Positions 9,921 through 44,412 of a stretch of 64,000 bases of DNA are shown piece after piece. The notes under the pieces were generated by a model that worked only from the letters and a program-made list of their open reading frames with translations, searched no databases and was not told the DNA's origin. The stretch comes from Bugula neritina (Eukaryota; Bryozoa; Gymnolaemata; Cheilostomatida; Bugulidae), in contig OZ037769.1 of the NCBI GenBank assembly GCA_964035545.1, positions 8,676,429-8,740,428 of the forward strand, written 5' to 3'. A program made the position numbers and the translations under genes. Numbering within the stretch: position 1 is the first letter of the stretch; every line of letters begins with the position of its first letter.

Positions 9921-10313
<393 letters not shown>

Positions 10314-25009: not shown

Positions 25010-25273
25010 ATACCACAGTAAAAATGACAGAGGTAATAATTAATAATGGCACATGTGATAATGGCAGTATGGAAAAGTAGGTAAAATGCCCCATTGATGT
25101 TAAATTTTCCAAAGCCCAAACTAAAACCTCCAAACTCAAACCCTTAAGCCCCCATCCTAAAAGTAAATATCCAATCCACCACCCTAAACCCTAATATTTA
25201 AAATGTGCCATTTTAATCTACTGTTCCATTTGCGCCATTATTACCTGTGCTGTTTTTACATGTGCCATTTTTA
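25010..25273. repeat. Imperfect inverted repeat beside the KDZ element
   Basis: The segment around 25047-25105 (GGCACATGTGATAATGGCAG and on) is partly complementary to 25195-25272 (ending CATGTGCCATTTTTA). It could be a small decayed MITE into which the large transposon later inserted. Similarity is patchy and no target duplication was found. Confidence 0.35.
25266..25273. repeat. Left 8-bp target duplication of the large DNA transposon
   Basis: CATTTTTA immediately left of the TIR; the same 8 bp are found at 44405-44412. Confidence 0.65.
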
Positions 25274-25373
25274 GAGGTAGGTGCAGTAATGGAGATATTG
25301 GAAATCACATATAAGAATTTACTATACAACATTTTCATTTTCTCCACATTATGTTATATATCAACACTTTTGG

Positions 25374-25690
25374 AGATTTGTTGAAAGTGTTAGACGGACC
25401 CTATCTGATTATTTTGTTAGATTGTTGAAAATTCAATGCTTTTATATATAAAAAAGTGTTGGAGATTTGTTGAAAGTGTTAGACAGAGCCCTATCTGATT
25501 ATTTTGTTAGATTGTTGAAAATTCAATGCTTTTATATATAAAAAAGTGTTGGAGATTTGTTGAAAGTGTTGGAGATTTGTTGAAAGTGTTAGACAGAGCC
25601 CTATCTGATTATTTTGTTAGACTGTTGGATTGTTGAAAATTCAATGCTTTTATATATCTACACTTTTGGAGATTTGTTGAAAGTGTTTGT
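25374..25690 (+). repeat. Left subterminal repeats, 90-bp unit
   Basis: Copies of a unit containing CTATCTGATTATTTTGTTAG, ATTGTTGAAAATTCAATGC, and GGAGATTTGTTGAAAGTGTT. The CTATCTGATT block recurs at 25401, 25491 and 25601. The spacing is 90, then 110 because of a 20-bp internal duplication. The same unit occurs inverted near the right end. Confidence 0.9.
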
Positions 25691-25880
25691 ACATTGTTTT
25701 TTCCTGCAATGTATTTGTTGAATGCTTCTATGCTGTGAAGCCGATCATTTCATGCTTCCATTCAATTAAAAATAGTAATAACACTAATTTTTTTTGACAT
25801 TTTGAGCATTTAATAATTTAATTGCTAAAATATAAAAAATACATTACTCTAAATAGCATCAATGTAAAACAACTCATTCT

Positions 25881-28683
25881 CTATTTCTTCATAAAATACA
25901 TGGAGTTTTTTCTTGCTCCTTGTGTTATAGTTCCAAGTCCTATTTTTTCTGCCGCCATCAAAAAATCCTTGCATTCACTCACAGTTTTGATTATTTTGTT
26001 CTGCTGCAGCGTCCTTGCTGTTATCACCTTCTCTTTTAGAGTATGCAACCTCTTTGTCGCATTGAGCTCCAAAAATTGTTCTTCGGTCATTGCCCCATAG
26101 TAACTGCTATTCTGCAAATTCATAACATATATTTCCTGAACAGTCTTTGGAAGGTTCCAAAGATGATTTGCTCCACATTTTCAATTGTTTTATATTTTAA
26201 CAGCAGCTTCGCAACATATATCGTAATTGCTTTGTTCATTATTGCAATTTTTTTTTGAAACACTAACCTCTTTAGCCTGTTCACCCTTTCTTTGAGGCAT
26301 CCCAATGATATTTAATTTCCAACCATCAAGATGCCGCATAACTGCAATTGCCTGTGTCATGCTGCTTGCTTGTACAATTCTAGTCCCTGGCACTCCTTCC
26401 TCAAGCGCATTGCTTGCCGCTTCCAGCACCATGGCCAATCGTAGGACATAACCCTGCATAATTACAATCAAGCAACTATAAGTTTACACAATAAGGTGTT
26501 TACAAACATGTATGGGTTGAGCTGCATCTATGATACTGAATTTCATTAGAAAACAAATCTGGGTGAAAGAGATTCTCACACTTCATATTTTTAAAGCTTG
26601 TGACTTTGAGTTATTGTAACATAGTAATATTTGCAAATATCTGTAGCGTTTTTTGTTACATAGGCATTGAAATTTGTAAAAGCTAGCTTATAAAGTTTGT
26701 AAATTGCCGAAATTTTACTTACAGAAGATTTATTTACCAGTCCCAAAGACGGATCAGCTGCTGGGAGGTCAGACGTTTTTGCCTCCATCTCATCAAAATA
26801 ATGTTCGAACAATGTTCCCGCTTCTGAATTTAGTTTATAGAAGTTCTTCTGAAAAAGTGGCCTCACAAATATTAAATACTAAATAATGCAATACATACAA
26901 TACATTTCAAGTCTCTTAACCAATTAAAATTTATAAAGATCCAAATACATAATTTTAATGAAAATAAACTTTTTTACACACGATTCACTTGCATACAACT
27001 TATAACTTATCCAGTTTTAAAATCCAGCTACATGCCAAACCAGTTACTAGCTATCTTGGCAGATTCAAATACATATAGACTTATACTATTCAGCATATAT
27101 GCATTACTTGAAATTTTACCTCTGAACAATGGTGATTTTGAAACACCTTCAAAAAAAGATTGAACAGATCTTTCCCACTCTCCACTCGCTTTCCTATCTC
27201 TTGAAACTTTACATGGCGCTTTGTGGTGAAGCATATCAAATGGCGGTCCAAAAACCCGTCTATATTGCCTCTCTTCATGAGCTGGTTGAGCAGCCGAGGT
27301 TGAAGAAAGCCTAGAAGTTATATGAAAGATTTTGTATAAAGTTTCAACAGGTAAAATATATTATATACCATTGTACGACACTTCTTTTAATAAATAATAG
27401 AACAGTAGCCAATAAACTGCAAACTACAAGAAAAGGAAATGAAGAAATTTTACATGTACACACTGAACTTTTGTGTACCTGTGTAATTTAATCTTGTTTC
27501 TTCTATTTCTTGTAGGCCTTGCTTGCTGTTTCGGGCCCAGCTCCCACCACCAGATAGTGTTAGCCAAACTCGTCTATCTAGGGAATCTGGTCTTCCCTTA
27601 TTGTCTAGACATTCGAACAAGCCTTCAATCTCATCCAGTATATTAAGATAAGTTCCGTTATTGGTGGATAATTGCTCATGCAATTTTGCCATAGGGATTG
27701 TTTCATTTGAGCAGAAAAGGCGAGAGAGACATGGCTCATTATCTATATATAAAGAAGTTCTATAGTAAATAGCAACAGAAAATTTTTTATCAGTAAAGTG
27801 AAAAAACAATGCTTATCTGAAAGAGCAGTTATTTTTTCCAGCAAAAGTTTAAACTGCAAATATTATGAAACATTGCATAACTACCTTGCGTTGAAAGTCC
27901 ACTAAAACTTGTTTCAGCTTGTTCATTACACACAGTATCTTTCACTCGCTTGAGGGCTGCCAACAGACACTTCAATGCCACTGTTTTTCGAGACCCTTTA
28001 GGTAACAGTAAATAAAAAATACTAATAATTTATCCTAACATACAAGCGGGGGGGGGGTTTGGGTAAAAAAAGCTCTAATCATGCTAAGCAAAAGACTGAT
28101 AAATGGTTTTGAATGAAATTATGTTCTCTTCATAATTTAGGCATTTTAATAGTCATTAGTTAATAAACATCAACATTCATGATCTGTGATTATGATGTCT
28201 AACCTGGAGGAGCAGCCACTGCAGACCAAATTATATTTGGTTCAGTAAAGTTGATCTCATCCCTATGAGTTGAGACAGTAGAAATCCCCATCAATCCAGA
28301 CACAATTGTGAGAACCGGTAGCAACAGCATCGAGATGTTGACAGAGGCTTCTTTTGAAATATCATCTAATAGCTTTACCAGCGGCGTGTTGGGGAGAACT
28401 TCCCATAACGGATCAGGATTTACCTGAAGTAAGTAAAATATGGTTTAAATGATAAATTATTAAATAAAAATACAATTGATCACTTATAATTTCCTAGAAA
28501 TGTTATTCCTTACCAAGATATAGAAGAATAGTTGTATAAATATAATAATGCAAATCCGTAGCTACTAATAACAATTCAAATACTTACATGTTCAGAAGTA
28601 TCTGTAATAGTAATTTCAGTGCATTCTACTGACATAGCTTCACAGTTGAGATTGGTTATATCAGTATCTGCGTTAGTGTCCAT
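25881..28683 (-). CDS. DUF3987 (YfjI-like) P-loop protein carried by the transposon
   Basis: Eight minus-strand exons join with every phase matching: 28683-28588, 28423-28204, 27995-27885, 27742-27479, 27310-27120, 26848-26723, 26453-26268, 26111-25881 (TAA). They encode 474 residues with no internal stop. Recognisable DUF3987 features in order are: an N-terminal helical region (PLWEVLPNTPLVKLLDDIS), a Walker-A-like loop split by an intron (AAPPG then SRKT), a Walker-B-like NILDEIEGLFECLD, a WLTLSGGGSW turn, and GFLQPRLLNQLMKRGNIDGF then FLDRHLI. The P-loop is unusual (A-P-P-G-S-R-K-T), lacking the usual second Gly. DUF3987 proteins are mostly bacterial, phage and plasmid helicase/primase-like ATPases. 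Here the gene is divergent from the transposase and ends about 190 bp inside the left repeats. A role in transposition or element replication is inference. ATG 28683 is used; another ATG sits one codon upstream. Confidence 0.75.
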
Positions 28684-28751
28684 CATATTATAATTCTAAG
28701 TATAAATACCAAGATGGTGTAGTCTGGATCAGGCGAGCTTTACTGCTTTAC

Positions 28752-29135
28752 TGTCTAAACTGACAGCATGACTCTAACAATATTGCAACTACTAAAAATG
28801 GTTTTGTCTTATATACTAATCCATTTGATAAACATCATATTGTGTTGCAAGAAGTATGATTTCACATTTTAGCTATTTTGGGATAGGATCTCACTATTTC
28901 AAAGAGGTGGGCTGAAGTAAACAAACACCTGTGACATCACAGCTGATGCAAGCATAACTGCTGACTATGAATCATTCTACATGCGTAGCTACTGTTTTGG
29001 GGTAGTAATTAAAGAAGCATTAGGTCGACTACTGGCAGCTAGTGGTTATATAGGCTAATTGAAGGTTGATGACATTGTGATTGTGCGTGATGGTACTTCG
29101 AGTTATAATTCCTGTAAACATCCTATTTCATAACA
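28752..29135 (-). repeat. BEL/Pao LTR, left (minus orientation)
   Basis: Reads TGTTATGAAATAGG ... GTTTAGACA on the minus strand. A purine-rich AAAGGGTCGAGTGTAA precedes it, as expected of the 3' LTR of the minus-strand pol fragments. Confidence 0.75.
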
Positions 29136-29381
29136 TTACACTCGACCCTTTAATTTCTATCTATTCACTTAGAGGGAATTAACAATTATATTATTATGCA
29201 TTTAAGATACTAAGCTAAAATACTAATATAGGTATGCATGCAAAGGTTATGGGGTAAATAGGTAAATTAATTTGTGGATAGGCCTATCTAAATATTTGGG
29301 TGGAGCTAGTCTCACACCTTTACTGTTCAACTCTGTAATTGCTAGCTGCACTTTTACCTTACGAATTAAGTCATCTCAGTT

Positions 29382-30030
29382 TTATGTGTTTCTATCTTTA
29401 CTTACACATTTGTCTTTACTTAGCCTGTTATATTCATCTGAAAATGACCCTTTTTGTACCCACTGCATTATAAGATGTTTAGCATCTGTCAAGTCAATAA
29501 TTGTGAGTCTGGGAGTTATGCTACCTTTATGCTTTACCAATCTTTTTCTTTTTGGGGTGATACACGCCAAAGTGGGGAATGTACCACTAATGTTTGCTTG
29601 CCTCACAATTTGTAGGTACCAATTCTGCATCGCCATTGTTTATTATGTCTGCCATAAATGCCACGTAATCTGTTTCATATTTCTGGTCTTTAAGCATTTT
29701 AGTTTTGAGGATATCAAGTCTGTGCACAGCTATTTGTCTATTGTCTGGTAATTGTGGCTTAGCATTTTTAAATGACAGTGGCATGCTGTAATAATTGTCT
29801 TTTCTTTGTTTAATATTGTTGCGCGTGTTATCTAAAAACTTGGCATCTCCCTGTGATATTTTATGAGTAGCAATGCACTTTGTGTCAGTATAATCTTGCT
29901 GTAGGACATTCAAGATATCTGAGCTCAAGTTCTGCTCGTGAGCCATAGCCCTATTGCATGTGGGAAATGAGTTTGTTTCATGCTTACCACGTTTGCCTAC
30001 AATACACCATCCTAGAGGTGTTCTCAGAGC
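29382..30030 (-). pseudogene. BEL/Pao pol remnant: RT start joined to integrase N-terminus
   Basis: The minus-strand frame begins at the Gypsy insertion point with FALRTPLGWCIVGKRGK, the protease/RT linker typical of Pao elements. It continues through LSFKNAKPQLPDNRQIAVHR and GDAELVP. After stops, a second frame gives WYIPHFGVYHPKKK, then jumps to DAKHLIMQWVQKGSFSDEYN, like the region before the Pao integrase. The catalytic RT (including YxDD) and RNase H are absent. It is inactive, with stops and frame changes. Confidence 0.75.
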
Positions 30031-30035
30031 AAAGG
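30031..30035. repeat. 5-bp target duplication of Gypsy A (left)
   Basis: AAAGG directly before the 5' LTR; the same AAAGG follows the 3' LTR at 34768-34772. Confidence 0.95.
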
Positions 30036-30343
30036 TGCTATGTATTGAACTAGCCTTGTCAATACACCACATAGATGCATATTATGACATACCACATTTT
30101 ATGTGCTCGGTTACTTTTTATTCTAATGTCTATTTGTTTAAACTCATTATATACAGTTTTTGCCATATCAATATACAAGCCAGTTGTTATTCTGTCACTG
30201 TTTATCTACATGTATTTTTTATGTCAGTTACTTGTTAGCTTCAATACAATACAGTCATACATTCTACTCTACAGCCAATCTTACTTATACGTGCTTAATC
30301 TTACTGTTTACTCTTGTTTAACATAAATAACAAGAACACAACA
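30036..30343 (+). repeat. 5' LTR of Gypsy A
   Basis: TGCTATGTATTGAAC ... AAGAACACAACA, 308 bp. I see no difference from the 3' LTR. Confidence 0.97.
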
Positions 30344-30363
30344 ACTGGTGTCAGAAGTGGGAT
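30344..30363 (+). promoter_or_regulatory. Primer-binding site of Gypsy A
   Basis: ACTGGTGTCAGAAGTGGGAT directly after the 5' LTR. TGGTGTCAGAAGTGGG-type sequences are common tRNA-primed sites in Gypsy elements; the exact tRNA was not determined. Confidence 0.85.
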
Positions 30364-30386
30364 AAACACAACCATATCATTTTGAA

Positions 30387-33300
30387 ATGGAGGAAGTTAT
30401 AAAACAACTTATAACAACAATGCAGCAACAACAGCAGCAGCAGATGGAGCAATTCGCTCAAATACTGGGACAATTTACTACAGCTGTAAAGCCTGGTGAA
30501 CCTGCACAAAATAAATCTGTAACTGTGCCTAGATTCGACTCTTATGACAGAGACAAGGAATCATGGACTCAGTATTTACAGCGGCTCAATCAACACTTTA
30601 CCGTTTACAACGTAAGTGACGGTGAACAAAAACGAGCTTGCTTACTTTCATGGATTGGCTCAGAATGTTATGAATTGCTGACAAAACTGTATGGCTCAGA
30701 GGACATAACTACCATGTCGTTCGATAATCTAGCAGGTAAGCTTAGCACACATTTTATTGAAACAAAACATGTGCAAGCAGCTAGATATATGTTTTATAAC
30801 TGTAAAATGAAACCTAACCAGTCATACTCAGATTGGGCAGCTGATTTACGGGGTTTAGCTCGTAACTGCAATTTTACCTGTAAAAAGGAAGACTGTGGTG
30901 AAAGTTATGTTGATGATCAAATTCGTGACATAATTATTAAAGAAACTCCACATGCTGATGTACGTAGACAATGCTTATTGGATCCAGATCCTACACTGGA
31001 AAATGTGTTAAAGAAGGCAGCTACATACATTCAAACAGCAGAAACTGATAAAGTTTTGAAGGGTGAGACCTCTACACCTGTTACCACAAATCAAATGTCC
31101 TCAACATACAAACGTCAAAACAAAGGTAGTCAGGGCAAGAGACCACAATTTCACAAGTCTGAAAACCAGACTGCTATGCCAACACAGCCTTCAAAGTTGA
31201 AATCATGTCCACAATGCTACATTAGCCACGATCGTAAACAATGTCCTCATCGTAACAAACAATGTAAGCTGTGCAACAAAACAGGACATATTTCTAGCGT
31301 CTGCAAAACTTCATCAAAATCAAGTGGGAACAACTCTCACTTCGTAGAAGAATCTTCAAGTAGTGTTTACAATATATATGAACGCAAGGGGAAACAAATA
31401 TGGATTAACACTACTGTGAACAACAAACAAACACAATTTCAGTGGGACACAGGCGCTACTTGTTCTATGGTAGGGAACAAAGGCTACGAAGCCCTAGGCT
31501 CTCCACCATATCAACAGACAGACACGGCCCTTCATTCATATGGAAATACCGCTATGCAGGTACGTGGTGAATGCTATGTAACAGTAACCATTGGTCAGAC
31601 TACAAAAAACAATCTTCGATTATTAATAGTAGACTCAGATGAAGGTGTCAACTTACTGGGCGTAGACTGGAGTGACAGTTTTGGACTATCACAACAGGGT
31701 CTATCTGCTGTAGACAGTGACACCGAGGTTACTAACGCAGTACACAATGTTGATACCAAGGTCAAAGTTCTCACAACAAAATATCCCGATGTTTTCAAAC
31801 CTGGAATAGGACATTGTAAAACATTCAAAGTACCAATTTACCTCAAATCAGAACATAAACCTTGTTTTTCTAAACCTAGAGAAATTCCCTATTCTCAACA
31901 TGAGGCCACTAGGGCTGAATTAAACAGGCTTGAAGCTGAAGGTGTCATACAACGTATTAACTTCAGTAACTGGGCCGCTCCTATAGTAGTGGTTACCAAA
32001 CCATCTGGCAAAGTTCGCATCTGTGGAGATTTCAAGCGACTCAATCAGTGCATCTCCATAGATCAGCATCCACTACCAAAACTGGATGATTTAATGAACA
32101 GGCTTAGAGGAGGTAAATTCTTCACCAAACTTGACTTGGCTGATGCTTACCTACAACTTGAGCTAGAAGATGATGCCAAACAGCTGTGTGTGATAAACAC
32201 TCCATTCGGATTATACCAATATAATAGAATGTGCTTTGGAATTGCCCCTGGTCCAGCTCAGTTTCAACGGTGTATGGATACCTTGACTCAAAAATTACCA
32301 GGAGTTGCTGCATACCTTGATGATTTAATCATTACTGGTAAAACGGAGGAAGAACACTGGACTAATCTGACAAACCTGCTTTCAACACTTCAAGAGCATG
32401 GTTTTCGAATACGATTAGACAAGTGTGAATTCTTCAAGCACTCTGTTGAGTATCTGGGTCACACCATCGACAAGGATGGCAAACGACCAACAGCTGCTTC
32501 CATGGCAGCTCTCTCTCAATTACCTCGACCACAGGACTTGCACCAACTGCAAGCATTTCTAGGAAAGGTTAACTACTATGGGCGCTTCATCTCTAATCTT
32601 GCGGATAAAGCAGCTCCACTGTACAAGCTCCTCAAGAATGATGCCACATTCACATGGTCAAATGAATGTGAACAAGCCTTTACCCAGCTGAAGAATAGCA
32701 TTATCAATGCTACTAGCCTGACACACTATGATGAGACAAAACCCCTAATTCTTGCAGCCGATGCGTCATCCTATGGATTAGGAGTTGTTCTCTCGCAGGA
32801 TACTGATCAGGGAGAAGTTCCAGTGGCTTACGCTTCAAAAACATTGACTGACACTCAAAAGAACTACTCTCAGATTGAACGTGAAGCTCTCTCTATTATA
32901 TATGGTGTGACCAAGTTCAGACAATTCCTATATGGACGACATTTTACGCTGGTCACAGACCATGAGCCTCTCACTACTATTTTTGCACCAGGCAAAAATA
33001 TTCCAACGTTAACAGCACAGCGTTTACAACGCTGAGCTCTCATTCTGATGGGTTTCCAGTTTACTATCAGGTACAGGAAGACCTCCCAACATGGGAATGC
33101 TGATTGTCTTTCGAGGTTACCATTTGGTCCTGATAGCAATTTTGACCGGATCGAGCAGCAGGACAACAAGGAGATATCCCATGCAATACAAGAGCAAATA
33201 TTTACATCATCTGTTGCTGGATACAATGAGGTCAGACAGGAAACTGTCAAAGATCAACACCTTCAACGTGTCGTAACATGGATTCAGCAAGGTTGGCCAG

Positions 33301-34430
33301 TCACAAAACCAGATGACAAAGAACTGGGCACTTTCTGGATTCACCGTGACTCCCTGCAACTTGAACAAGGTGTATTGTTGTTGATACGCGAACAAACAAG
33401 TCGTGTAGTTCTACCTCGTTCACTTCAATGCAGAATACTAGACACACTTCATTCTTCACACTGGGGTGTAGTCAAGGTAAAGCAACTAGCTCGCCGCTAT
33501 GTGTGGTGGAGCACCATCAACACGGATATTGAGCTAGCCATAAAATCTTGTGAAGTATGCCAGGAGTCAGCAGCTGCTCCAGACCAGAAGTTTCAAAGCT
33601 GGCCCAAGACAGACAAGCCATGGGAACGCATACATCTAGATTTTGCTGGACCTTTTAGAGGAAAAATGTGGCTTATCTGCATTGATGCTTGTTCAAAATT
33701 TCCATATATTGGACGCATGGAAATAGGGCAGACAACTTCTCGCCAAACATTACAAGTATTAAAGGATATCTTTGCTATAGAAGGTGTACCTGCTACTATA
33801 GTTACAGATAATGGCCCACAGTTTTCCAGCCAGGAATTTACTAATTTCTGCAACAGTTTCCACATCAACCATGTCTTGTCACCTCCATACCACCCACCTT
33901 CAAATGGTGAAGCTGAACGATTTGTCAGAACTTTTAAAAGCTCTGTGGACAAGAATTGTGAGGGAGGAGCATCTCTAGACGAGAGTATCAGACTTACATT
34001 AGCATCATACAGAACCATTCCACATCCTGCTTTGGAATGGAAAACACCTGCAAAAGTCCTGCATGGCCGCCAGCCCAGAGGCTTACTATCCCTTCTCCAA
34101 CCTACTAATCACAAATACCCTAAACATGACAAGCCACAGACAACACAGTTCACTATTGACTCACTAGTGTACGCTCGTAACTACAGTACTGGTCCAAAGT
34201 GGATCCCAGGAACTATCATATCAAAACAAGGAAATGCTATCTACATAGTACAAACAGACAGTGGCAACTGGAAGAGGCATGCTAATCAGCTTCAAATTCG
34301 CCTTCCATCTACAAATATGAACAAATCAGTGGTACCCAACACACCCCAAGCTGATAATAATATTGTCCATCCTCATGAGAGGCGCTATCCAACCAGAGAG
34401 CGCAGACAGCCAGATTGGTACAAGCCATAA
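30387..34430 (+). pseudogene. Gypsy A gag-pol polyprotein, one in-frame stop
   Basis: A single 1347-codon frame from ATG 30387 to TAA 34428-34430, interrupted only by TGA at 33033-33035 within pol. Order: Gag with a poly-Gln stretch near residue 15; a zinc knuckle (CKLCNKTGHISSVC, about residue 295); aspartic protease with WDTGATCSMVG; reverse transcriptase with KLDLADAYLQ and the YLDD catalytic motif; RNase H with AADASSYGLG and TDHEPL; then, after the stop, the integrase HHCC finger (HSSHW ... CEVCQ) and DDE core (HLDFAGP, TDNGPQF, NGEAERF). This is the standard Gypsy order. The stop falls at the RNase H/integrase connection, so it would yield a polyprotein without integrase. It could be a recent lesion, a base error, or read through in life. 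Confidence 0.95.
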
Positions 34431-34449
34431 CTCTTAAGTCTAAATTTGT

Positions 34450-34459
34450 GAGGGAGGAG
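34450..34459 (+). promoter_or_regulatory. Polypurine tract of Gypsy A
   Basis: Purine run GAGGGAGGAG directly before the 3' LTR, the plus-strand priming site. Confidence 0.9.
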
Positions 34460-34767
34460 TGCTATGTATTGAACTAGCCTTGTCAATACACCACATAGAT
34501 GCATATTATGACATACCACATTTTATGTGCTCGGTTACTTTTTATTCTAATGTCTATTTGTTTAAACTCATTATATACAGTTTTTGCCATATCAATATAC
34601 AAGCCAGTTGTTATTCTGTCACTGTTTATCTACATGTATTTTTTATGTCAGTTACTTGTTAGCTTCAATACAATACAGTCATACATTCTACTCTACAGCC
34701 AATCTTACTTATACGTGCTTAATCTTACTGTTTACTCTTGTTTAACATAAATAACAAGAACACAACA
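34460..34767 (+). repeat. 3' LTR of Gypsy A
   Basis: 308 bp, the same sequence as 30036-30343, followed by the AAAGG target duplication (34768-34772). Confidence 0.97.
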
Positions 34768-34772
34768 AAAGG

Positions 34773-35178
34773 GATCATTGATTGCAAGGCCTATTTTAGT
34801 TTCAAGTGGCACTAAAGCTCTGGAGCTGTCATACCCTATAAAAATTCATATCTCTATATCTAAACCTTGTGGTATTTTACCTGCAATGCATTTAAGGTGT
34901 GGCCATCTATTGGCAATTTCTCGTGTGGGTATGTGCTGCTTGTTAATTAGAATGCTGTCCGTACTGTAAGTCTTTCCTACTTGTATCTGCTCATGCATGT
35001 TCAGTCCTCTAATAGTCAAGTTATTGTACACCTTACACTTCATTTCCAAGTTGTCAGCTGTCATTGTTGTTAGTTTAAGAGAAACTGGTTTGCTTGTAGC
35101 TGTTTGTAGCTTACTAACAACTTGGTTGGTTACAAATGCGGTATCTGACATGCTATCTAAAAGTGCATAAGTTAGCAT
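34773..35178 (-). pseudogene. BEL/Pao protease remnant
   Basis: The minus frame has YALLDSMSDTAFVTNQVV, the D-S-x-S-D aspartic protease motif typical of Pao retroelements (peptidase A17 type), then HLKCIAGKIPQGLDIEI. One in-frame stop follows. Beyond it FIGYDSSRALVPLE runs to the Gypsy A insertion point. Its continuation is the fragment at 30030-29382. Upstream gag is missing. Confidence 0.75.
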
Positions 35179-35246
35179 TTCCTCAAGATTTACAGCACAA
35201 CTATACCAACACTTTATTATCTCTATCTCTTACAAGGAGGGTGTAA

Positions 35247-35626
35247 TGTTACGAAATGAGATGTTTACAGGAATTATAACTCGTAGTACCATCACGCACA
35301 ATCACAATGTCATCAACCTTCAATTAGCCTATATAACCACTACCTGCCAGTAGTCAACCTAATGCTTCTTTAATTACTACCCCAAAACAGTAGCTACGCA
35401 TGTAGAATGATTCATAGTCAGCAGTTATGCTTGCATCAGCTGTGATGTCACAGGTGTTTGTTTACTTCAGCCCACTTCTTTGAAACAGTAAGATCATACC
35501 CCAAAATAGCTAAAATGTGAAACCATACCTCTTACAACGCAATAATGTTTATCAAATGGATTAGTATATAAGACAAAACCATTTTTAGTAGTTGCAATAT
35601 TGTTGGTCATGCTGTCAGTTTAGACA
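35247..35626 (+). repeat. BEL/Pao LTR, right (plus orientation)
   Basis: TGTTACGAAATGAG ... GTTTAGACA, preceded by ACAAGGAGGGTGTAA (polypurine-like). It is inverted relative to the left LTR. Confidence 0.75.
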
Positions 35627-35745
35627 TATTTTTTAAGTTTATGTAAGACTACCAAAGAGTAGCATTATTTGAAAGACTGTGCAAAGCCACAGCATCAACA
35701 TAACAGTAGATTAGGAGAGAGAGAAAAGGTAACAAACTTCTATTT

Positions 35746-35804
<59 letters not shown>

Positions 35805-36849
35805 GATTACATTTTTATACTATAAAGTTTCAATAATATGGACTGTAGTTACATGCTATGTTGAATTGTTATTTCATGCTGCTATCTACAATTTATGATA
35901 TACATTGCTAGTGCCTTTACATACATACTTATTATACTACATACATTTTGTTTGCGTTAATATCATTATGCCTTATGTTGTATTATTATTATTTTAGTTT
36001 TTACAGTCAGTATTTGATCAGCATTGGTGATTCAAATAAACTCTGATCACGGCTAAAACCCTCCCTATTCCTAGTCAGGCTGTATAAGCTAGAGTGTCAC
36101 TCTAAAGCAAGAATCATAGCAAAGAGTGTCATTCTATAGAGGGAGATCTCTGCCTGATTACATCACATTACGTAGAGGTAGGTTAAGTAAAGGGCAAAAT
36201 TAGAAACTTACCATAAGAAGTCGTTTTCTTAAACCGAATTAGTGAACTTAGGCTATCTCAATTTTTCCACTGATCGTAATGCTCTAAAAGTACATGTGAG
36301 TATTTGTCTGTATATATATGTATATACAACAATATTTTTAAAATTAGTATTCACACAAATGTATATTATTTCAAGTTTTTGCATAATATTTTTTTACTCT
36401 AAATGAACTTCACACCCAAATTTAGTATGAGTTAAAAATACTTAAGCTACCTATCTCAATTATTTTACTGTTGCTCAGCAATATTGCTATATTTTGCTTT
36501 CAATCTTAGAATTAGGACATGTACATTAAAAGTTTTTACTTGATATTTCAATTGTGCAATTCATTCAATATACCTTTAAAGTTATATATAATTTGCTGGA
36601 TGTACATCTATATTTTTTTATAAGACAAGTTGTTGTATTTCTAGTATAATTAATTGAAATGCATTTGACAAATATATAGTTGTAGTTGAAGTTTAAAAAA
36701 AAATTTGTGATCTAATGAAAAAGTTTGTAGTGGTAATGGTTTTCTTTGCCACATATATAAATAGTTCTACAGTATAATCATACGTTACATAACTACTTTC
36801 AAAAAGACACTTCAACATATTTCTAACTATATGAGTATCATTTTATAGA
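35627..36849. other. Transposon spacer and (TA)n run, no exon recognised
   Basis: It holds a pure (TA)n tract at 35750-35801 and otherwise AT-rich sequence. The 5' end of the transposase gene should lie here, but no exon with a start codon and matching phase could be identified. Confidence 0.5.
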
Positions 36850-37632
36850 TACTACAAACATTGACATGCCTCAGTTTACCCTGATAGCTGGAATAATGCC
36901 ATTGTTTGCTTATGCATACTTTGCTGTCCCAGAGGGAACTCCTTTCAGATGGAAGAAAATTACCAGTTACATTAAAGACCATTTGGCCAAGATTCAAAGC
37001 TATGAAGAGCTTACAAAAATAACTGTGAGTGTTTCTGTTGATTTAGAAACTAGCTTACGGCAATATAATTGATTCACTAGAAATTTAATAATTTTGTATT
37101 TGAAGTTTTTCTAAATATATTTTTGAGAGATGTAATGAAAAAAAAGGAAATGTTGTAAATTAACTGAATATCATACACCGTTGTTAGTAAAATATCATCG
37201 CACAACAGTAAATACGATAACTTTGGTTAAATGCTTAGTTTAAAGTAATGAGATATTGGCAGAAACTCTAGGTAATCGCATGGCTTCCTGTAGAAAGCTA
37301 GTCACATATGGAAATTTTTGAAAACACCCTTTTAATGTTTATGAATTGGATAAGAGGCAATGTGTATTACAAAATAAAATGTTTTAAATTAAAACTAGGT
37401 TGGAGCTAAAAAGCATAAAGAGAGTAACTATGAGTGCAGCAGTTTTTACAAAGAAGTGTTCCGGATCATTGGGGAAGATAATTTGATGGTGTACAACCTT
37501 CCTTTAAAATCTCATATGGTGTTTTTACCAAAAAAGAAGCTATGTTGTGACCAGGTCGGTTAATATTTAAATCATTAAAAGTATTTCATTAGTGTATATG
37601 CGTATCTGGTATTATATATTATGAATAGCTAG

Positions 37633-37930
37633 CAGAGTTGGGGTAGTTGTAATTGGTTGTAATTAATTACATTTACTAAAGTAATTGAATGTAATTTGTA
37701 ATTGATGTATAAGAATTTGATTGTAATTGTAATTAATAAAGAATTGCTAATGTTTTTGAATTTAATGTCATATTTATCAACATATTTTTTACTGTTAAGA
37801 ACAAAGAAGGTTTTCAGTTGTCAAAATTGCCCCAGAAATGAGATTAAATAACATTTAGTACTCTCTTGTTAGGACAAATAATCTTGTAATTGTAATTAAT
37901 TACATTACCATGTAATTGACTCCAACCTTG
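37633..37930. mobile_element. hAT-type MITE in a transposase intron (298 bp)
   Basis: Terminal inverted repeats CAGAGTTGGGGTAGTTGTAA and (reverse complement) CAAGGTTGGAGTCAATTACA, flanked by an exact 8-bp duplication ATAGCTAG (37625-37632 and 37931-37938). The interior is rich in TGTAATTAATTAC. An 8-bp TSD and CA-G start fit non-autonomous hAT elements. Confidence 0.85.
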
Positions 37931-39255
37931 ATAGCTAGAGTAGTAAAAAACCTTTGTACCAGTGTATGTTATCAACTTTTCACTAATGTAGATTATGAAG
38001 ATAGACAAAGATCGGCCATCGGAAGTTGTAGTGTATACACGAGATGGTATGTCAACAGCACAAGTGTATCACACTATGTGCAGCAAATGTAAAACTGCAT
38101 ATTTTCCAACTTATGAAGAAACCAACACCAGCAGAACATTCTACACAACATCAAAGGACGATAAAATTATGATGACAAGCCGGTCAACAGCCTTTACATT
38201 GGATTGCCTTAAAGAAGTGCTAGTTGATATTCAACTAGGTCGCAGCTTTGGGGAGCTCTGTGAGCGATACAGTAAGCTGTATGGCTCAGATGAGTACAGA
38301 GGAGAAGTTTTTAAAACCAGACTAGAAGATGTTTATTTTATAGCCCAGCTATTAAAATACTTCAATAACAATGTCAGCTTCTCAAAAGATAATATAGCTA
38401 ACCGGCTTGCCATAGATGACGTGTGTGATGAAGCAGCTGAAATAATATTCGCACAGAACAGTAAATGGGCTGCTCACAATTGTAAAATAAAAGGTTGCTC
38501 AGAGGGATTTGTTATGTGTGATGGCAATGAAAAAATAAACAGAAGAATTTGTGCTGCTCCTAAACAACATTTTAAGCTAGGGAAGGGAATGCCCAACACT
38601 ATAGGTTGCTGCCCAAACACACCAACTTTAGGAGGAAAAAACAAATCCTCGTCGGTATATTGCAAAGATCATCAATTTTTAGATTCAGACATTGTTGACA
38701 AACACATCATAGTGACAATTAATGTGCCAGATCAAGCTGTATCATCTAGGATTGTTGATGTGAGTAAAGATGTGGTAAAGATGCAAGAAGAAGATGAAAA
38801 TATTGGCTGCAAAAAAAACAAAGAATATAACTAGATTTCATCAAAAAACAGCTGGGATTATGGCCATTGTCAAGCCCTGTGGGATAATCATAGATCATCG
38901 GGAGATGTACACTTGTGAATCGGCAAGCCAACTCTTTGTCCAGTTGTTGAAGTTAATAGATGATCATGGAGACAAGTTGAAATATGTGGGCTATGACAGG
39001 GCATGTGAATTTCAGCCATTTGTGGAGCGACTGCATAAGAACGGAAATGCTGGTGCAGCTGAGCTCAGCAAATTGAAATATCTGGTAGACAGATTTCACA
39101 TCAGAGGTCATACAAAAGCAGAGTGTGACATTTCCCAAGCCTCATGCAAATACCATCCAGATTTGCCGATCTTCACGGAAATAAGTGCAGCAAACACAGA
39201 ATGTGCAGAGCAAACATTCTCCTGGCTAAAGAAGTATAAGCATACCGTTAAATAC

Positions 39256-39260
39256 ATGAC
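39256..39260. repeat. 5-bp target duplication of Gypsy B (left)
   Basis: ATGAC before the 5' LTR; repeated at 43551-43555 after the 3' LTR. Confidence 0.95.
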
Positions 39261-39781
39261 TGTCACAAATTCTGAGTGTACATATACCTATGGACTTACC
39301 GGGTTTTTCCTAATGATTATATACGAATGTTCATAAATATTCTAGACTGATCAAAGAGATGGGTCATTGTTCATTGTTATTGTTTTCATTAGTCATGTTA
39401 ACTACTGCCCAGCAATGTAAACAAGGTGTTGCGCAATAATTGCGAAATAACCATGGAAATTCCAATGTTTTGTTTTGTTTTGATTTTCTATAAATAGTAT
39501 TGGCATGTGAGGAATGTTTTCTACTAGAATCTTCTATACTGGAATGCTTGAGAATGTCCTAGAGTGTTTTGTTTACTATAAATACTGAAGCAGTTGTGTT
39601 TACGAATCAGTTCATTTTTATAAGTTCGTCTGCGCATATCTTACTCGAGAAATAAAGTCTACTCATATTCACAACTCTATTTACTCTTAACTGGATTAGC
39701 AAGCTGTATGCTACTTGTCTATACACTTCTGACTACCAGACTTTTCGAACTCGTCACACTGCTACCAACAGTTTTGTGACA
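39261..39781 (+). repeat. 5' LTR of Gypsy B
   Basis: 521 bp with an inverted TGTCAC/GTGACA end. A TATA-like TATAAATA at about 39577 and AATAAA at 39651 could be the promoter and polyadenylation signal. Confidence 0.95.
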
Positions 39782-39801
39782 ATTGGGGGCTGCTCCGGGA
39801 A
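39782..39801 (+). promoter_or_regulatory. Primer-binding site of Gypsy B
   Basis: ATTGGGGGCTGCTCCGGGAA right after the LTR. It resembles the tRNA-Pro-type site TGGGGGCTCGTCCGGGA with a swapped CG/GC. Confidence 0.75.
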
Positions 39802-39877
39802 GTCTCAGTCGCACACAGGGAAGTTATTAGTTACAACGTGAGTATACACAGGATTAATTAACAGTTGTTGAGACATT

Positions 39878-42800
39878 ATGGCGTTGTTGGAGAGAGTGAC
39901 ACAGATGGGTAAAGATCTTGGACTGGTGGATGACAAGCTCGTAGCTTTTGTTGAAAAGAACCTACCCATTGTTGCTGCACAAGAAGAAAAAGAAAAGGAC
40001 CGAGAGGAAAAAGAAAAGGACCGAGAGGAGCGGAGATTAGAGCGTGAGGCGGAAAGGATCAGGCAAGAAAATGAGAAAGCCATAATGGAGATGAAGATAA
40101 AAGCTGACCAGGAGGCAGAAGAGAGAAGACAACAACATGAATTAGATATGGAAAAGCTGAAAGCTAACACAAGTTTGGAGCACTCAAGACATGAGAGCAC
40201 CAGGTTAGAAATAGCTAACAAACCAAAACCAAAAATACCATTCTTTGATGAGAAGGTGGACGAAATGGATAGCTATTTAGAGCGGTTCGAGTGGGTTGCC
40301 GAAGGATGTAACTGGGACAAGGGAGATTGGCCCTACCATCTCAGTCAGTACCTAAGGGGTACAGCAACAGAAGCTTACATCCGGTTGTCACCTACCGATC
40401 GTAGAGATTATAAAAAAGTCAAAGAAGCCTTATTGGAGCGCTTTAACTTGACTCAAGAGGGCTACAGAAAAAAGCTCAGAGAGGCAGAAGCTTACGAGGA
40501 TGAAACTCCTGCCCAACTGTTCACTAGGATAGAAAGTTATGTGCCCAAGTGGGTGGAGCTTTCAGGGGGCATGGACATAGCCAAACTAGTGGCGACTGAA
40601 CAATTTATATCATCATGCCCAGACGACCTAGCTATGCATTTAAAGCAAAGTTCCTACAACAGCAGTGAAGATATGTGTGATGCAGCATCACTGTTTTTGC
40701 ACGCCCGTGGAAGAAAACTAGCAAAGACTAAGAAAACTAATACAAAAAGGATGGAAAACACACCCACCGGTAGCATGAATGCTGAACAAGGAAGTAAAAG
40801 CGATGGGGCATGCTTTATTTGCAAAGATAAGTCACACATTGCTCGTAACTGCCTACGGCGGGGGAAGAAGTACTGTTCACATTGCAAGATGAACAATCAC
40901 AATACTTCAGACTGCAGAAAGTATGGTGGAAGGTCGGTGCATGCTGCTGCTGCAATAGCGACTACTCAGAATAAGACTGTGGTCACAGATCCAGGAATCT
41001 CATTTAAAGTGGAAGAACCTACGGAAATCACAGTTAATGGTAAAAAGTTTGTCAACGCTGCTGTCTGCAAGAATGGACCTAAATTCAAAGATGGGGGCAC
41101 AGCAATATTTGATGCGGAAGTTAATGGCCAACGAGCTACTGTAATGTGCGACACCGGCTGTGGTTGCATTGTAGTCAATGCAAAGTATGTGCAACTTCAA
41201 CACTTAACTGGAGAATCAGTTTATCTGAATATGGCTGTTGCAAGTGTTAGGGAGGCTCAGTGGGCACTTATCTCAGTGCGCTCACCGTTTTACAATGGTG
41301 TCGTCAAAGCTGCAGTAATGGACAAGACGATTTGTGACCTGCTTATTGGGAATGTGGATGGAGCAAGATCAGCTGACCAGCCGCTGGAAAACTGGAAGGA
41401 TTGCGCCGTAACCACAAGAGCTCAAGCTGTCAAGGAAAAGTCAGGAGACAAACCACTGATGATAGATTCAAATGCTAACCCATTAAGTATAGGGAAAGAT
41501 GAGATAGCCAGACTGCAGAGGGATGACCCCACATTGGAGCGTTTCTTCGATGCAAAAGAAGTGAAGGAGAAAAAGGGATGCACCACTAGGTTTGTGGTGA
41601 GGAATAAGATTCTGTACCGTGAGTACACCGACTCGAAGTCTGTCAGTGTAAAACCTGTTAAACAACTCATGGTACCCAGTTCACTGAGGAAGGAAGTTCT
41701 ACAGAAAGCTCATGACTGCATAATGAGCGGACACCTAGGAGTAAAGAAAACCACTGATAGAGTGCTTTCCAACTTCTTCTGGCCAGGACTAAACGGAGAT
41801 GTCGTACGTTTCTGTCAATCATGTGACATTTGCCAGAAGACGGTGAAAAAAGGCTCAGTCATGAAAGTTCCAGTACAGGAAACTCCACTAATTGACACCC
41901 CATTCAAGAGATGTGCAATAGACCTAGTCGGACCAATTAACCCTCCAAGTGAGAAAGGACACCGCTACATCCTAACTTTAGTTGACTATGCTACAAGATA
42001 TCCTGAAGCTACACCATTGAAGAACATTGACTCAGCTACGGTAGCTGAAGCGCTGCTTGACATGTACAGCCGTGTTGGGATACCAGAGGAGGTGATAAGC
42101 GACCAAGGAACTCAATTCATCTCGGACTACATGAAAGAGTTTACCAGATTACTTGACATGCGACAACTTCCTACTTCACCGTACCATGCAATGGCCAATG
42201 GACTTGTGGAAAAGTTCAACGGAACCCTCAAGAGTATGTTAAAAAAGTTGTGTGCCAAAGAGCCAAGACAGTGGCATCGGTTCATCAATGCGGCTCTATT
42301 TGCATATAGAGAAGTCCCACAGGAATCAACAGGCTTCGCCCCATTTGAGTTACTCTATGGAAGAACTGTGCGTGGACCAATGTACATCCTGCGACAACTT
42401 TGGACAAAAGAAGACACTGCCGATGAAGTCAAGACCTGCTATCAACATGTTTTTGAATTGAGAGAGCGTTTAGATGACATGGTGGAAATGGCGCTAGCTT
42501 CGCTAAAAGACAGTCAAAAAAGATACAAACACTATTTTGACAAGAAAGCTAAGCAGAGAGACTTCAGACCTGGTGACAAAGTGCTCATTCTTCTACCTAC
42601 GGATGGAAATAAATTGCTGATGCATTGGCAAGGACCATTCAATATTGAGGAGAAAGTCAGACTGAATGACTACATTATCAACATTAGAGGCAAGAGGAGA
42701 ACATACCATGCCAACATGCTGAAGAAATATTTTGAGCGGGAGACGCCTACCGACCCTATGACTGTTGGAGCTGTGATGACTCTAGATGCTGCTGGTGCTG

Positions 42801-42952
42801 GAATTATTGATCACGATAAGGAAAGAGAAGAATGCCAAGATGTGTTGGACCTGTACAGTAAGAAACAGCAGAGTGATGAGATGGGCTATGTATTTACAGA
42901 ACTTCAGAATCAAGGCGGAGTCAATCAAAGGAAAGGACAATGTTGGAGCTGA
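39878..42952 (+). CDS. Gypsy B Gag-protease-integrase polyprotein (no RT)
   Basis: Uninterrupted 1024-residue frame. Residues ~25-100 form a charged Glu/Lys/Arg coiled coil. Residues ~115-240 are a retrotransposon Gag domain (PFFDEKVDEMDSYLERFEWV). Two zinc knuckles follow (CFICKDKSHIARNC and CSHCKMNNHNTSDC). The aspartic protease motif is VMCDTGCGCIVVN, ending LLIGNVDGA. Integrase comes directly next: HHCC finger (HDCIMSGHLG ... CQSCDICQ), then DDE core (CAIDLVGP, SDQGTQF, NGLVEKFNGTLK) and a C-terminal RPGDKVLILLP ... HANMLKKY region. The frame then runs into the deletion junction near 42865-42885 and ends out of phase with the RNase H remnant. The frame is intact, so Gag and integrase could still be made. 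Confidence 0.93.
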   Translation: MALLERVTQMGKDLGLVDDKLVAFVEKNLPIVAAQEEKEKDREEKEKDREERRLEREAERIRQENEKAIMEMKIKADQEAEERRQQHELDMEKLKANTSLEHSRHESTRLEIANKPKPKIPFFDEKVDEMDSYLERFEWVAEGCNWDKGDWPYHLSQYLRGTATEAYIRLSPTDRRDYKKVKEALLERFNLTQEGYRKKLREAEAYEDETPAQLFTRIESYVPKWVELSGGMDIAKLVATEQFISSCPDDLAMHLKQSSYNSSEDMCDAASLFLHARGRKLAKTKKTNTKRMENTPTGSMNAEQGSKSDGACFICKDKSHIARNCLRRGKKYCSHCKMNNHNTSDCRKYGGRSVHAAAAIATTQNKTVVTDPGISFKVEEPTEITVNGKKFVNAAVCKNGPKFKDGGTAIFDAEVNGQRATVMCDTGCGCIVVNAKYVQLQHLTGESVYLNMAVASVREAQWALISVRSPFYNGVVKAAVMDKTICDLLIGNVDGARSADQPLENWKDCAVTTRAQAVKEKSGDKPLMIDSNANPLSIGKDEIARLQRDDPTLERFFDAKEVKEKKGCTTRFVVRNKILYREYTDSKSVSVKPVKQLMVPSSLRKEVLQKAHDCIMSGHLGVKKTTDRVLSNFFWPGLNGDVVRFCQSCDICQKTVKKGSVMKVPVQETPLIDTPFKRCAIDLVGPINPPSEKGHRYILTLVDYATRYPEATPLKNIDSATVAEALLDMYSRVGIPEEVISDQGTQFISDYMKEFTRLLDMRQLPTSPYHAMANGLVEKFNGTLKSMLKKLCAKEPRQWHRFINAALFAYREVPQESTGFAPFELLYGRTVRGPMYILRQLWTKEDTADEVKTCYQHVFELRERLDDMVEMALASLKDSQKRYKHYFDKKAKQRDFRPGDKVLILLPTDGNKLLMHWQGPFNIEEKVRLNDYIINIRGKRRTYHANMLKKYFERETPTDPMTVGAVMTLDAAGAGIIDHDKEREECQDVLDLYSKKQQSDEMGYVFTELQNQGGVNQRKGQCWS

Positions 42953-42983
42953 TTATCCAAGCCGAATTGACTCAGAATTTTAA
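42874..42983 (+). pseudogene. RNase H tail left by the RT deletion in Gypsy B
   Basis: A second frame overlapping the end of the polyprotein reads RWAMYLQNFRIKAESIKG, then KDNVGADYPSRI. This is the conserved end of the Gypsy RNase H domain (W-x-L-x-L-Q-x-F ... GxxN-x-x-AD-x-L-S-R). Its position shows that RT and RNase H once followed integrase and were lost by an out-of-frame internal deletion. Confidence 0.85.
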
Positions 42984-43018
42984 GTAGTAAGGAGAAATTA
43001 TTAAGATAATTTCTCTTA

Positions 43019-43029
43019 GAATGGGGGGT
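43019..43029 (+). promoter_or_regulatory. Polypurine tract of Gypsy B
   Basis: GAATGGGGGGT immediately before the 3' LTR. Confidence 0.8.
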
Positions 43030-43550
43030 TGTCACAAATTCTGAGTGTACATATACCTATGGACTTACCGGGTTTTTCCTAATGATTATATACGAATGTT
43101 CATAAATATTCTAGACTGATCAAAGAGATGGGTCATTGTTCATTGTTATTGTTTTCATTAGTCATGTTAACTACTGCCCAGCAATGTAAACAAGGTGTTG
43201 CGCAATAATTGCGAAATAACCATGGAAATTCCAATGTTTTGTTTTGTTTTGATTTTCTATAAATAGTATTGGCATGTGAGGAATGTTTTCTACTAGAATC
43301 TTCTATACTGGAATGCTTGAGAATGTCCTAGAGTGTTTTGTTTACTATAAATACTGAAGCAGTTGTGTTTACGAATCAGTTCATTTTTATAAGTTCATCT
43401 GCGCATATCTTACTCGAGAAATAAAGTCTACTCATATTCACAACTCTATTTACTCTTAACTGGATTAGCAAGCTGTATGCTACTTGTCTATACACTTCTG
43501 ACTACCAGACTTTTCGAACTCGTCACACTGCTACCAACAGTTTTGTGACA
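43030..43550 (+). repeat. 3' LTR of Gypsy B
   Basis: 521 bp, one visible difference from the 5' LTR, followed by ATGAC (43551-43555) and the rest of the transposase exon. Confidence 0.95.
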
Positions 43551-43839
43551 ATGACTGCGGCAAAATTTCGTTTTTTCCTATACTCAATAATAGAGGACCG
43601 GAATACAGAAATCCACCAACAGCAAAAAGGAAAATTTCTTTGAAATAACACTTATTTTTATTTCTATATAGTTTTAATTTTTTTACTTTACCATAATTTT
43701 ACTTATTATTATTTGAATTCCTTGTAAAAATAACATAAATGTTAACAATTCTGACAGCTCAACATGTAAAATATATTTAAAACATTGTCTTAACATTTCC
43801 AACAAGCAAGTCAACATAATTGAAAATAGCTTTGTCTAA

Positions 43840-44250
43840 CACTTTCAACAAATATCTGAAAGTGTTGATATATAAAAGCATTGAATTTCCACCAATCTAA
43901 CATTCCAACAAAATAATCAGATAGGGCTCTGTCTAACACTTTCAACAAATGTCCAACACTTTTTTATATATAAAAGCATTGAATTTTCAACAATCTAACA
44001 AAATAATCAGATAGGGCTCTGTCTAACACTTTCAACAAATCTCCAAAAGTGTAGATATATAAAAGCATTGAATTTCCAACAATCTAACAAAATAATCAGA
44101 TAGGGCTTTGTCTAACACTTTCAACAAATCTCCAACACTTTTTTATATATAAAAGCATTGAATTTTCAACAATCTAACAATCTAACAAAATGATCAGATA
44201 GGGCTCTGTCTAACACTTTCAACAAATCTCCAACAATCTAACAAATATGA
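43840..44250 (-). repeat. Right subterminal repeats, 90-bp unit, inverted
   Basis: Four or more copies of the reverse complement of the left repeat unit. The ATCAGATAGGGCT block recurs about every 90 bp (near 43917, 44006, 44096, and 44193). Copies alternate between TTTTTTATATATAAAAGC and GTAGATATATAAAAGC variants. Confidence 0.9.
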
Positions 44251-44404
44251 TACACTAGTCAGCCCTTGTCTAACAGTTGTATCCATAGCTTCCTACAATT
44301 CCAAATATGTTGGTAGGACTCATCTAACACAAGTCAAAAGCTTTCAACAAAATGCTATTCAGTGAGGAATTTTTGGTCAAAATCTCCATTTCTGCACCTA
44401 ACTG

Positions 44405-44412
44405 CATTTTTA
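44405..44412. repeat. Right 8-bp target duplication of the large DNA transposon
   Basis: CATTTTTA immediately right of the TIR. Confidence 0.65.

Follow-up and report, generated by a model that had tools for sequence, protein, structure and literature searches.

We analyzed a 64,000-nucleotide window from the genome of the bryozoan Bugula neritina (contig OZ037769.1) and found that positions 25274-44404 are a single insertion of 19,131 bp. It carries two divergent genes, one for a transposase of the KDZ class (Kyakuja, Dileera and Zisupton) and one for a P-loop protein of the DUF3987 family (PF13148). This interval is almost certainly a two-gene KDZ transposon. The explanation that we favor, with a probability of roughly 0.7, is a KDZ-class two-gene transposon that likely moves by cut-and-paste and in which the DUF3987 protein is a predicted accessory ATPase or helicase. 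The observations on which this explanation is built are the ends of the element, the duplications that flank it, the order of its genes, its sister copies in the same genome and the selection on both genes.

Ends of the element and its copies in the genome

The insertion is flanked on both sides by an exact 8-bp direct duplication, CATTTTTA. Its terminal inverted repeats (TIRs) are imperfect, agreeing at 20 of the first 24 bases, and inside them lie subterminal repeats with a unit of 89-98 bp; the longer of these (at least 59 bases) match at 90-98% and are inverted between the two ends of the element. The TIRs, the 8-bp target-site duplication (TSD) and the inverted repeats of about 90 bp had all been proposed in a preliminary description made from the letters alone, and each of them holds.

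Seven pairs of facing ends lying 4-23 kb apart were picked by eye from listings of matches to end patterns. Both genes and an 8-bp TSD are present in four of the seven, and two more have the DUF3987 gene only, again with an 8-bp TSD. Thus other TIR-bounded copies with both genes and 8-bp TSDs, for which the preliminary description had advised a search, do exist. The duplications are exact in all six copies (CATTTTTA, TAAAAGAT, CTATGTCT, TAAATATT, GCTCAATC and TGATTGAG), and the chance of such an 8-base match at this base composition is about 3e-5 for each. Over 2.9 kb of the DUF3987 half and 4.5 kb of the transposase half, the window copy, here called W, shares 98.5-99.1% identity with each of the remaining full-length copies (C4, C5b and C8). 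Given this identity and the open frames in the sister copies, the gene pair is, as far as sequence can tell, recently active.

In C4, C5b and C8 the subterminal arrays have grown to 48-60 units at the left end and 12-19 at the right end, with a unit of 98 bp and a match of 90-98%. Copy C4 also has a 6,767-bp tandem duplication that doubles the transposase gene and the right end; its inner end has no TSD match. In the C3 copy the DUF3987 gene is inverted relative to the two end types, as if the interior had been flipped, and exon 4 is present twice. An end pair on C9 (12.4 kb) was rejected as an element: it lacks a TSD, and only the first 125-127 bases and short repeat-unit matches are alike.

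A search pattern for the TIRs matched three times within the window, against 0.11 expected in shuffles, and two of the three matches are the ends that supplied the pattern. The third, TAGGTGCAGTAACGGAGAA at 5698-5716 on the minus strand, has a GAGAA-type end and is possibly a small non-autonomous relative. Genome-wide, with up to two mismatches, the pattern found 1212 sites, compared with 5 for a backward-read control; most of the one-mismatch sites among the matches listed terminate in GAGAA and perhaps derive from other elements of smaller size. Two longer, end-specific patterns found 29 left-type and 26 right-type sites, with none for the backward controls, and also three short facing-end pairs of 297-350 bp. 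Solo ends were read in parts of four regions.

The spliced DUF3987 protein gave 63 matches genome-wide (DUF3987 counts are lower bounds, 55 candidates having been scored). These fall in the six elements, at a locus on C4 (13384846-13387479) and in fragments on C3 at 6.23 Mb and 19.73 Mb; one further match lies about 2 kb outside the C3 element. Within these bounds no separate host DUF3987 gene was found genome-wide, and the unrelated single-copy host gene envisaged as a counter-example in the preliminary description did not appear. The transposase gave 27 matches at six loci, namely the four elements, C7:11301795-11304189 and C4:13369713-13371958. The last of these is on the minus strand, 39-85% identical by piece and interrupted by stops. 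The C4 DUF3987 remnant lies 12.9 kb from it on the plus strand (39-74% identical), so that the two diverge just as they do in W. The two pieces scanned there (13368000-13380000) contained no TIR. By its sequence, this locus looks like an older, decayed two-gene pair.

The transposase and DUF3987 genes

As first described, two divergent genes lie head to head between the ends, the transposase gene on the plus strand and the DUF3987 gene on the minus strand. The KDZ profile (PF18758) scored 38.4 bits in the window, over a curated cut-off of 26.6, and 37.7-38.8 bits in C4, C5b and C8. The CxC5 profile scored 40.5 bits in the window (cut-off 26.9) and 42.3 bits with the spliced C8 protein. For CxC6 there was no match at E<=1 in the scanned window frames or the spliced proteins; thus, of the claimed KDZ-type core with CxC5- and CxC6-like clusters, the core and CxC5 stand and CxC6 does not. 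A CxC6 cluster is not known to be required of KDZ transposons in general. DDE-type residues are located on an RNase H-like fold, with D, D and E invariant, as expected of a KDZ transposase. In each of the three other full-length copies the main transposase exon has an uninterrupted frame of 451 codons, and the protein as modelled has 556 amino acids. In W two lesions break the gene, a frameshift near 38,810 and a long terminal repeat (LTR) retrotransposon inserted at 39261, and therefore the window copy cannot be autonomous. To judge by this reading of the gene, W is unable to produce an intact transposase and would have to rely on that of a sister copy.

KDZ searches of viral contigs and of prokaryote genome contigs found no relative. 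Five weaker KDZ matches in the same genome (L025-L029, on C2, C5, C7 and C8) were rejected as copies of the present element: they appear to represent a different KDZ family, whose gene is split (HIDGNMKLYK). The two of these loci that were read, L025 and L028, are near-identical, and the DUF3987 search had no match near any of the five.

The DUF3987 gene has eight exons separated by GT-AG introns, runs on the minus strand from 28686 down to 25881 and encodes a protein of 496 residues; its frame in W is open from start through stop. The spliced protein of sister copy C8 (495 residues), modelled on the window exons, matched PF13148 at 83.3 bits (E 2.6e-23, cut-off 27), in agreement with the earlier claim of a complete DUF3987 P-loop gene. 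This match consists of three stretches, the best of which spans profile positions 117-300 of 364. The single open frames of the window all score below the cut-off, with profile positions 4-46 and 317-353 weakly matched, and a PF13148 search of the genome at E 1e-3 found nothing, since the coding sequence is spread over eight exons; the match emerged only after splicing. PHROG 2373, annotated as a DNA helicase, matched with a whole-protein E of 4.4e-8, no single stretch passing 0.01 alone.

The protein contains the motifs PPGSRKT and NILDE, which we take to be Walker-A-like and Walker-B-like, respectively. In three relatives the Walker A region reads GSRKT or GSKKS, with K and T or S kept and the preceding G replaced; the consensus of four phage DUF3987 members is PPSTGKS. 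Of 12 candidates in a protein search with the exon-4 frame, nine proved to be relatives. A structure predicted for one DUF3987 fragment, P0018, reached a pLDDT of 46 and was set aside. No match at E<=0.01 was found among 7989 scored candidates when a protein database was searched with the spliced protein, and none in a scan of viral contigs or in NCBIfam; the PDB sequence search returned one match only, triosephosphate isomerase at E 0.66. The contigs of the DUF3987 relatives and those of the KDZ relatives have no length in common, which gives no sign of linkage in other organisms.

Comparison between copies indicates that purifying selection has held both genes over comparable divergence. For the DUF3987 gene, W and C4b compared over 494 codons gave a synonymous divergence (dS) of 0.36 and a non-synonymous divergence (dN) of 0.066, a ratio of 0.18. 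For the KDZ gene, C8 compared with the C7 transposase over 438 codons gave dS 0.256 and dN 0.057, a ratio of 0.22, and C8 compared with C5b a ratio of 0.15 on 5 and 3 changes.

The positions of all features and copies are collected in Table 1. Both LTR retrotransposon sites of W are empty in copy C8, and the retrotransposon between the genes appears from its domain order to be Ty3/gypsy-like. The sister copies without the two retrotransposons are still 15.4-17.1 kb long because their subterminal arrays are far larger. The insert flanked by inverted arms is common to the four full-length copies and is therefore older than their spread; between the arms is an open frame (29590-30081) without a Pfam match. 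Elsewhere in the window, a TG-repeat run of about 390 bp (9922-10312) lies within open frames on all six readings.

Table 1. Positions of the features of the window element and of its copies in the genome
Feature	Position	Strand	Basis or remarks
Left TSD CATTTTTA	25266..25273	.	identical to 44405-44412
Left TIR GAGGTAGGTGCAGTAATGGAGATA	25274..25297	+	20/24 vs reverse complement of right end; same left end in 6/6 TSD-flanked copies
Left subterminal array, ~90-bp unit, 2-3 copies	25370..25690	+	repeat comparison
DUF3987 exon 8 (C-terminal, stop)	25881..26111	-	spliced model
DUF3987 exon 7 (PF13148 profile 317-353)	26268..26453	-	spliced model and profile search
DUF3987 exon 6	26660..26848	-	spliced model
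DUF3987 exon 5	27120..27310	-	spliced model
DUF3987 exon 4, Walker-B-like NILDE	27479..27742	-	spliced model and profile search; nine relatives P0017-P0025
DUF3987 exon 3; Walker-A-like PPGSRKT across exon 2/3 junction	27885..27995	-	spliced model
DUF3987 exon 2	28204..28423	-	spliced model and profile search
DUF3987 exon 1 (start)	28588..28686	-	spliced model
Inverted-repeat arm, ~365 bp, around insert between genes	28776..29141	+	partner 35241-35604
Nested LTR retrotransposon (reverse transcriptase, RNase H, integrase), TSD AAAGG	30036..34763	+	between the genes; absent from C8
Second inverted-repeat arm	35241..35604	-	partner 28776-29141
KDZ transposase exon 1 (as modelled)	36866..37024	+	donor GTGAGT; N-terminus similar in P0012, P0013
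KDZ transposase exon 2	37399..37554	+	AG and GT at its ends
KDZ transposase exon 3, 5' part: CxC5 and KDZ core, frameshift near 38,810	37992..39260	+	profile matches
Nested LTR retrotransposon (integrase core, H2C2), TSD ATGAC	39261..43550	+	inside transposase gene; absent from C8
KDZ transposase exon 3, 3' part and stop	43556..43643	+	sequence reading
Right subterminal array, ~4 copies, inverted vs left array	43829..44236	-	repeat comparison
Right TIR CAGTTAGGTGCAGAAATGGAGATT (on - strand)	44381..44404	-	comparison with left end
Right TSD CATTTTTA	44405..44412	.	identical to 25266-25273
Copy W (window)	25274-44404		both genes; TSD CATTTTTA
Copy C4	C4:11708273-11731106		both genes; exact 8-bp TSD at outer end
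Copy C5b	C5:10983288-11000354		both genes; exact 8-bp TSD
Copy C8	C8:6195058-6210418		both genes; exact 8-bp TSD
C3 copy, 4,327 bp	C3:3889854-3894180		DUF3987 only, with stops; exact 8-bp TSD
Copy C4b, 5,017 bp	C4:16747097-16752113		DUF3987 only, frame-breaking indels; exact 8-bp TSD

Proposed role of the DUF3987 protein and alternative explanations

In the mechanism that we propose, the transposase would cut both ends of the element and join these to the target at positions staggered by 8 bp, a role suggested by the match in fold and by three invariant residues, D, D and E. Putative binding sites for the transposase would be the inverted arrays inside the TIRs, which comprise between about 2 and 60 units of 89-98 bp. 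The DUF3987 protein, as predicted from its family, would bind ATP and, together with the transposase, open or remodel DNA at the ends, in the donor gap or at the target. It is predicted to be an ATP-driven DNA motor because domains of this family have been proposed to replace known helicases beside primases in mobile elements (PMC5862659), phage members are annotated as putative helicases (PMC8004638), and the copies of a phage satellite drop when its primase gene, defined in that paper's search model by DUF3987 plus DUF5906, is deleted (PMC10803314). On balance, the DUF3987 protein is probably a working partner in transposition.

Several results weigh against this explanation. Foldseek by itself found no match to the transposase model at E<=0.001 (best 0.028), the model being that of a relative 51% identical and not of the window protein itself. 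The Walker A motif of the DUF3987 protein (PPGSRKT) is irregular in that the residue before K is not G, with K and T kept. When phage sequences were compared directly, tblastn of DUF3987 against phage records found no match, comparing profiles with four phage DUF3987 proteins gave a weak result, at 3.4% probability, and the BLASTP alignment with one of these phage proteins covered only 20 residues (E 0.02), and those at a wrong position. The C4b gene that yielded the ratio of 0.18 itself has frame-breaking indels, and W compared with C8 gives a DUF3987 ratio of 0.51 on few changes (5 synonymous, 9 non-synonymous). Finally, the two genes are not strictly paired: KDZ is missing from two of the TSD-flanked copies, which have DUF3987 alone, and the C7 transposase has no DUF3987 gene in the 11.8 kb upstream or among the matches of its contig. 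Copies lacking the DUF3987 gene, which the preliminary description had named as contrary evidence, are thus represented once, by a transposase whose element ends are not defined; all six TSD-flanked copies have the DUF3987 gene.

The C7 transposase and the two copies that keep DUF3987 alone would also agree with DUF3987 as a passenger, that is, a captured gene that spreads with the element and has no role in transposition, for example one that aids escape from host control. A parallel is found in fungal KDZ elements, which can carry TET/JBP genes thought to counter silencing (PMC12730594). We regard a passenger as rather unlikely, since purifying selection, the decayed pair of the same layout and the link of the family to mobile-element replication (PMC5862659, PMC10803314) better fit a role in movement or copying. 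That the two genes are unrelated neighbors, caught between the same ends by accident, is hardly credible, even in an element where nested insertions are common (two LTR retrotransposons and the shared inverted-arm insert). Four copies, each at its own site and with its own exact TSD, contain both genes, three of these copies being so nearly identical to W, and the decayed C4 pair repeats the layout; the sister copies already contradict an accident.

Replicative movement, by copy-out or peel-and-paste with DUF3987 as the replicative helicase, we consider improbable. Elements whose DDE transposase makes an 8-bp stagger usually move by cut-and-paste, and the scanned frames gave no primase or polymerase match except the reverse transcriptase of the nested LTR element. 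The predicted replacement of replicative helicases beside primases (PMC5862659) and the lowered copy number of the phage satellite (PMC10803314) do speak for such a route. We prefer cut-and-paste movement with DUF3987 as a predicted accessory ATPase or helicase. It may even be, and we offer this tentatively, that a eukaryotic DDE lineage acquired a replication helicase from bacterial mobile elements and developed into an obligate system of two components, transposase plus helicase, in several host species; if so, this would be a eukaryotic counterpart of the bacterial transposase-ATPase pairs. The recent activity of the element makes it directly testable whether the KDZ transposase requires an ATPase as its partner.

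Comparison with known systems

The element resembles the known KDZ transposons in its KDZ core, CxC5, DDE-type residues, inverted ends and 8-bp TSD; Zisupton and a Dileera element are reported to make TSDs of this length (PMC12730594). It differs from them in its DUF3987 gene, in its large inverted subterminal arrays and in its shorter transposase (a main exon of 451 codons and 556 amino acids as modelled, against up to 1400 amino acids reported for Pristionchus, similar to fish; PMC9297572). With the fungal KDZ elements that carry TET/JBP (PMC12730594) it shares the presence of a second enzyme gene, which is a dioxygenase there and a P-loop protein here; a scan of 14 open frames and 2 spliced proteins found no TET/JBP Pfam match. 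Kolobok elements can carry a RecQ helicase (PMC9587614), and KolobokH and Kolobok-1_CCri are alike in combining a DDE transposon with an accessory helicase, on the complementary strand in Kolobok-1_CCri. In contrast to these RecQ lineages, the transposase here belongs to another superfamily and the helicase family is unrelated. The DUF3987 proteins of phages, plasmids and satellites belong to the same Pfam family (PF13148), are predicted helicases and reside in mobile elements, but here the gene is of a spliced eukaryotic type, its Walker A is irregular, no primase domain was matched and its partner is a DDE transposase.

KDZ and DUF3987 together, or Zisupton or Kyakuja with DUF3987, were not found in the literature searched, in which few subscription journals were covered; the DUF3987 literature found concerns bacterial, archaeal or phage contexts, as judged by title. 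Since TET/JBP-carrying KDZ elements and RecQ-carrying Kolobok elements precede it, a DDE transposon with a helicase-like partner is already a known kind of arrangement; the pairing of KDZ with DUF3987 appears, on our analysis, to be new. The proposal of a new two-gene transposon type thus survives for the pairing and not for the arrangement. With it, the DUF3987 family of predicted helicases turns up in a second and separate kind of mobile element, next to a DDE transposase in a genome with introns and under purifying selection, and a predicted P-loop motor is added to the short list of known accessory enzymes of eukaryotic DDE transposons. Among bacteria, transposases are paired with ATPases in Tn7 (TnsC), Mu (MuB) and IS21 (IstB). 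Those ATPases are AAA+ target selectors; the element described here is like these pairs in combining a transposase with a P-loop partner.

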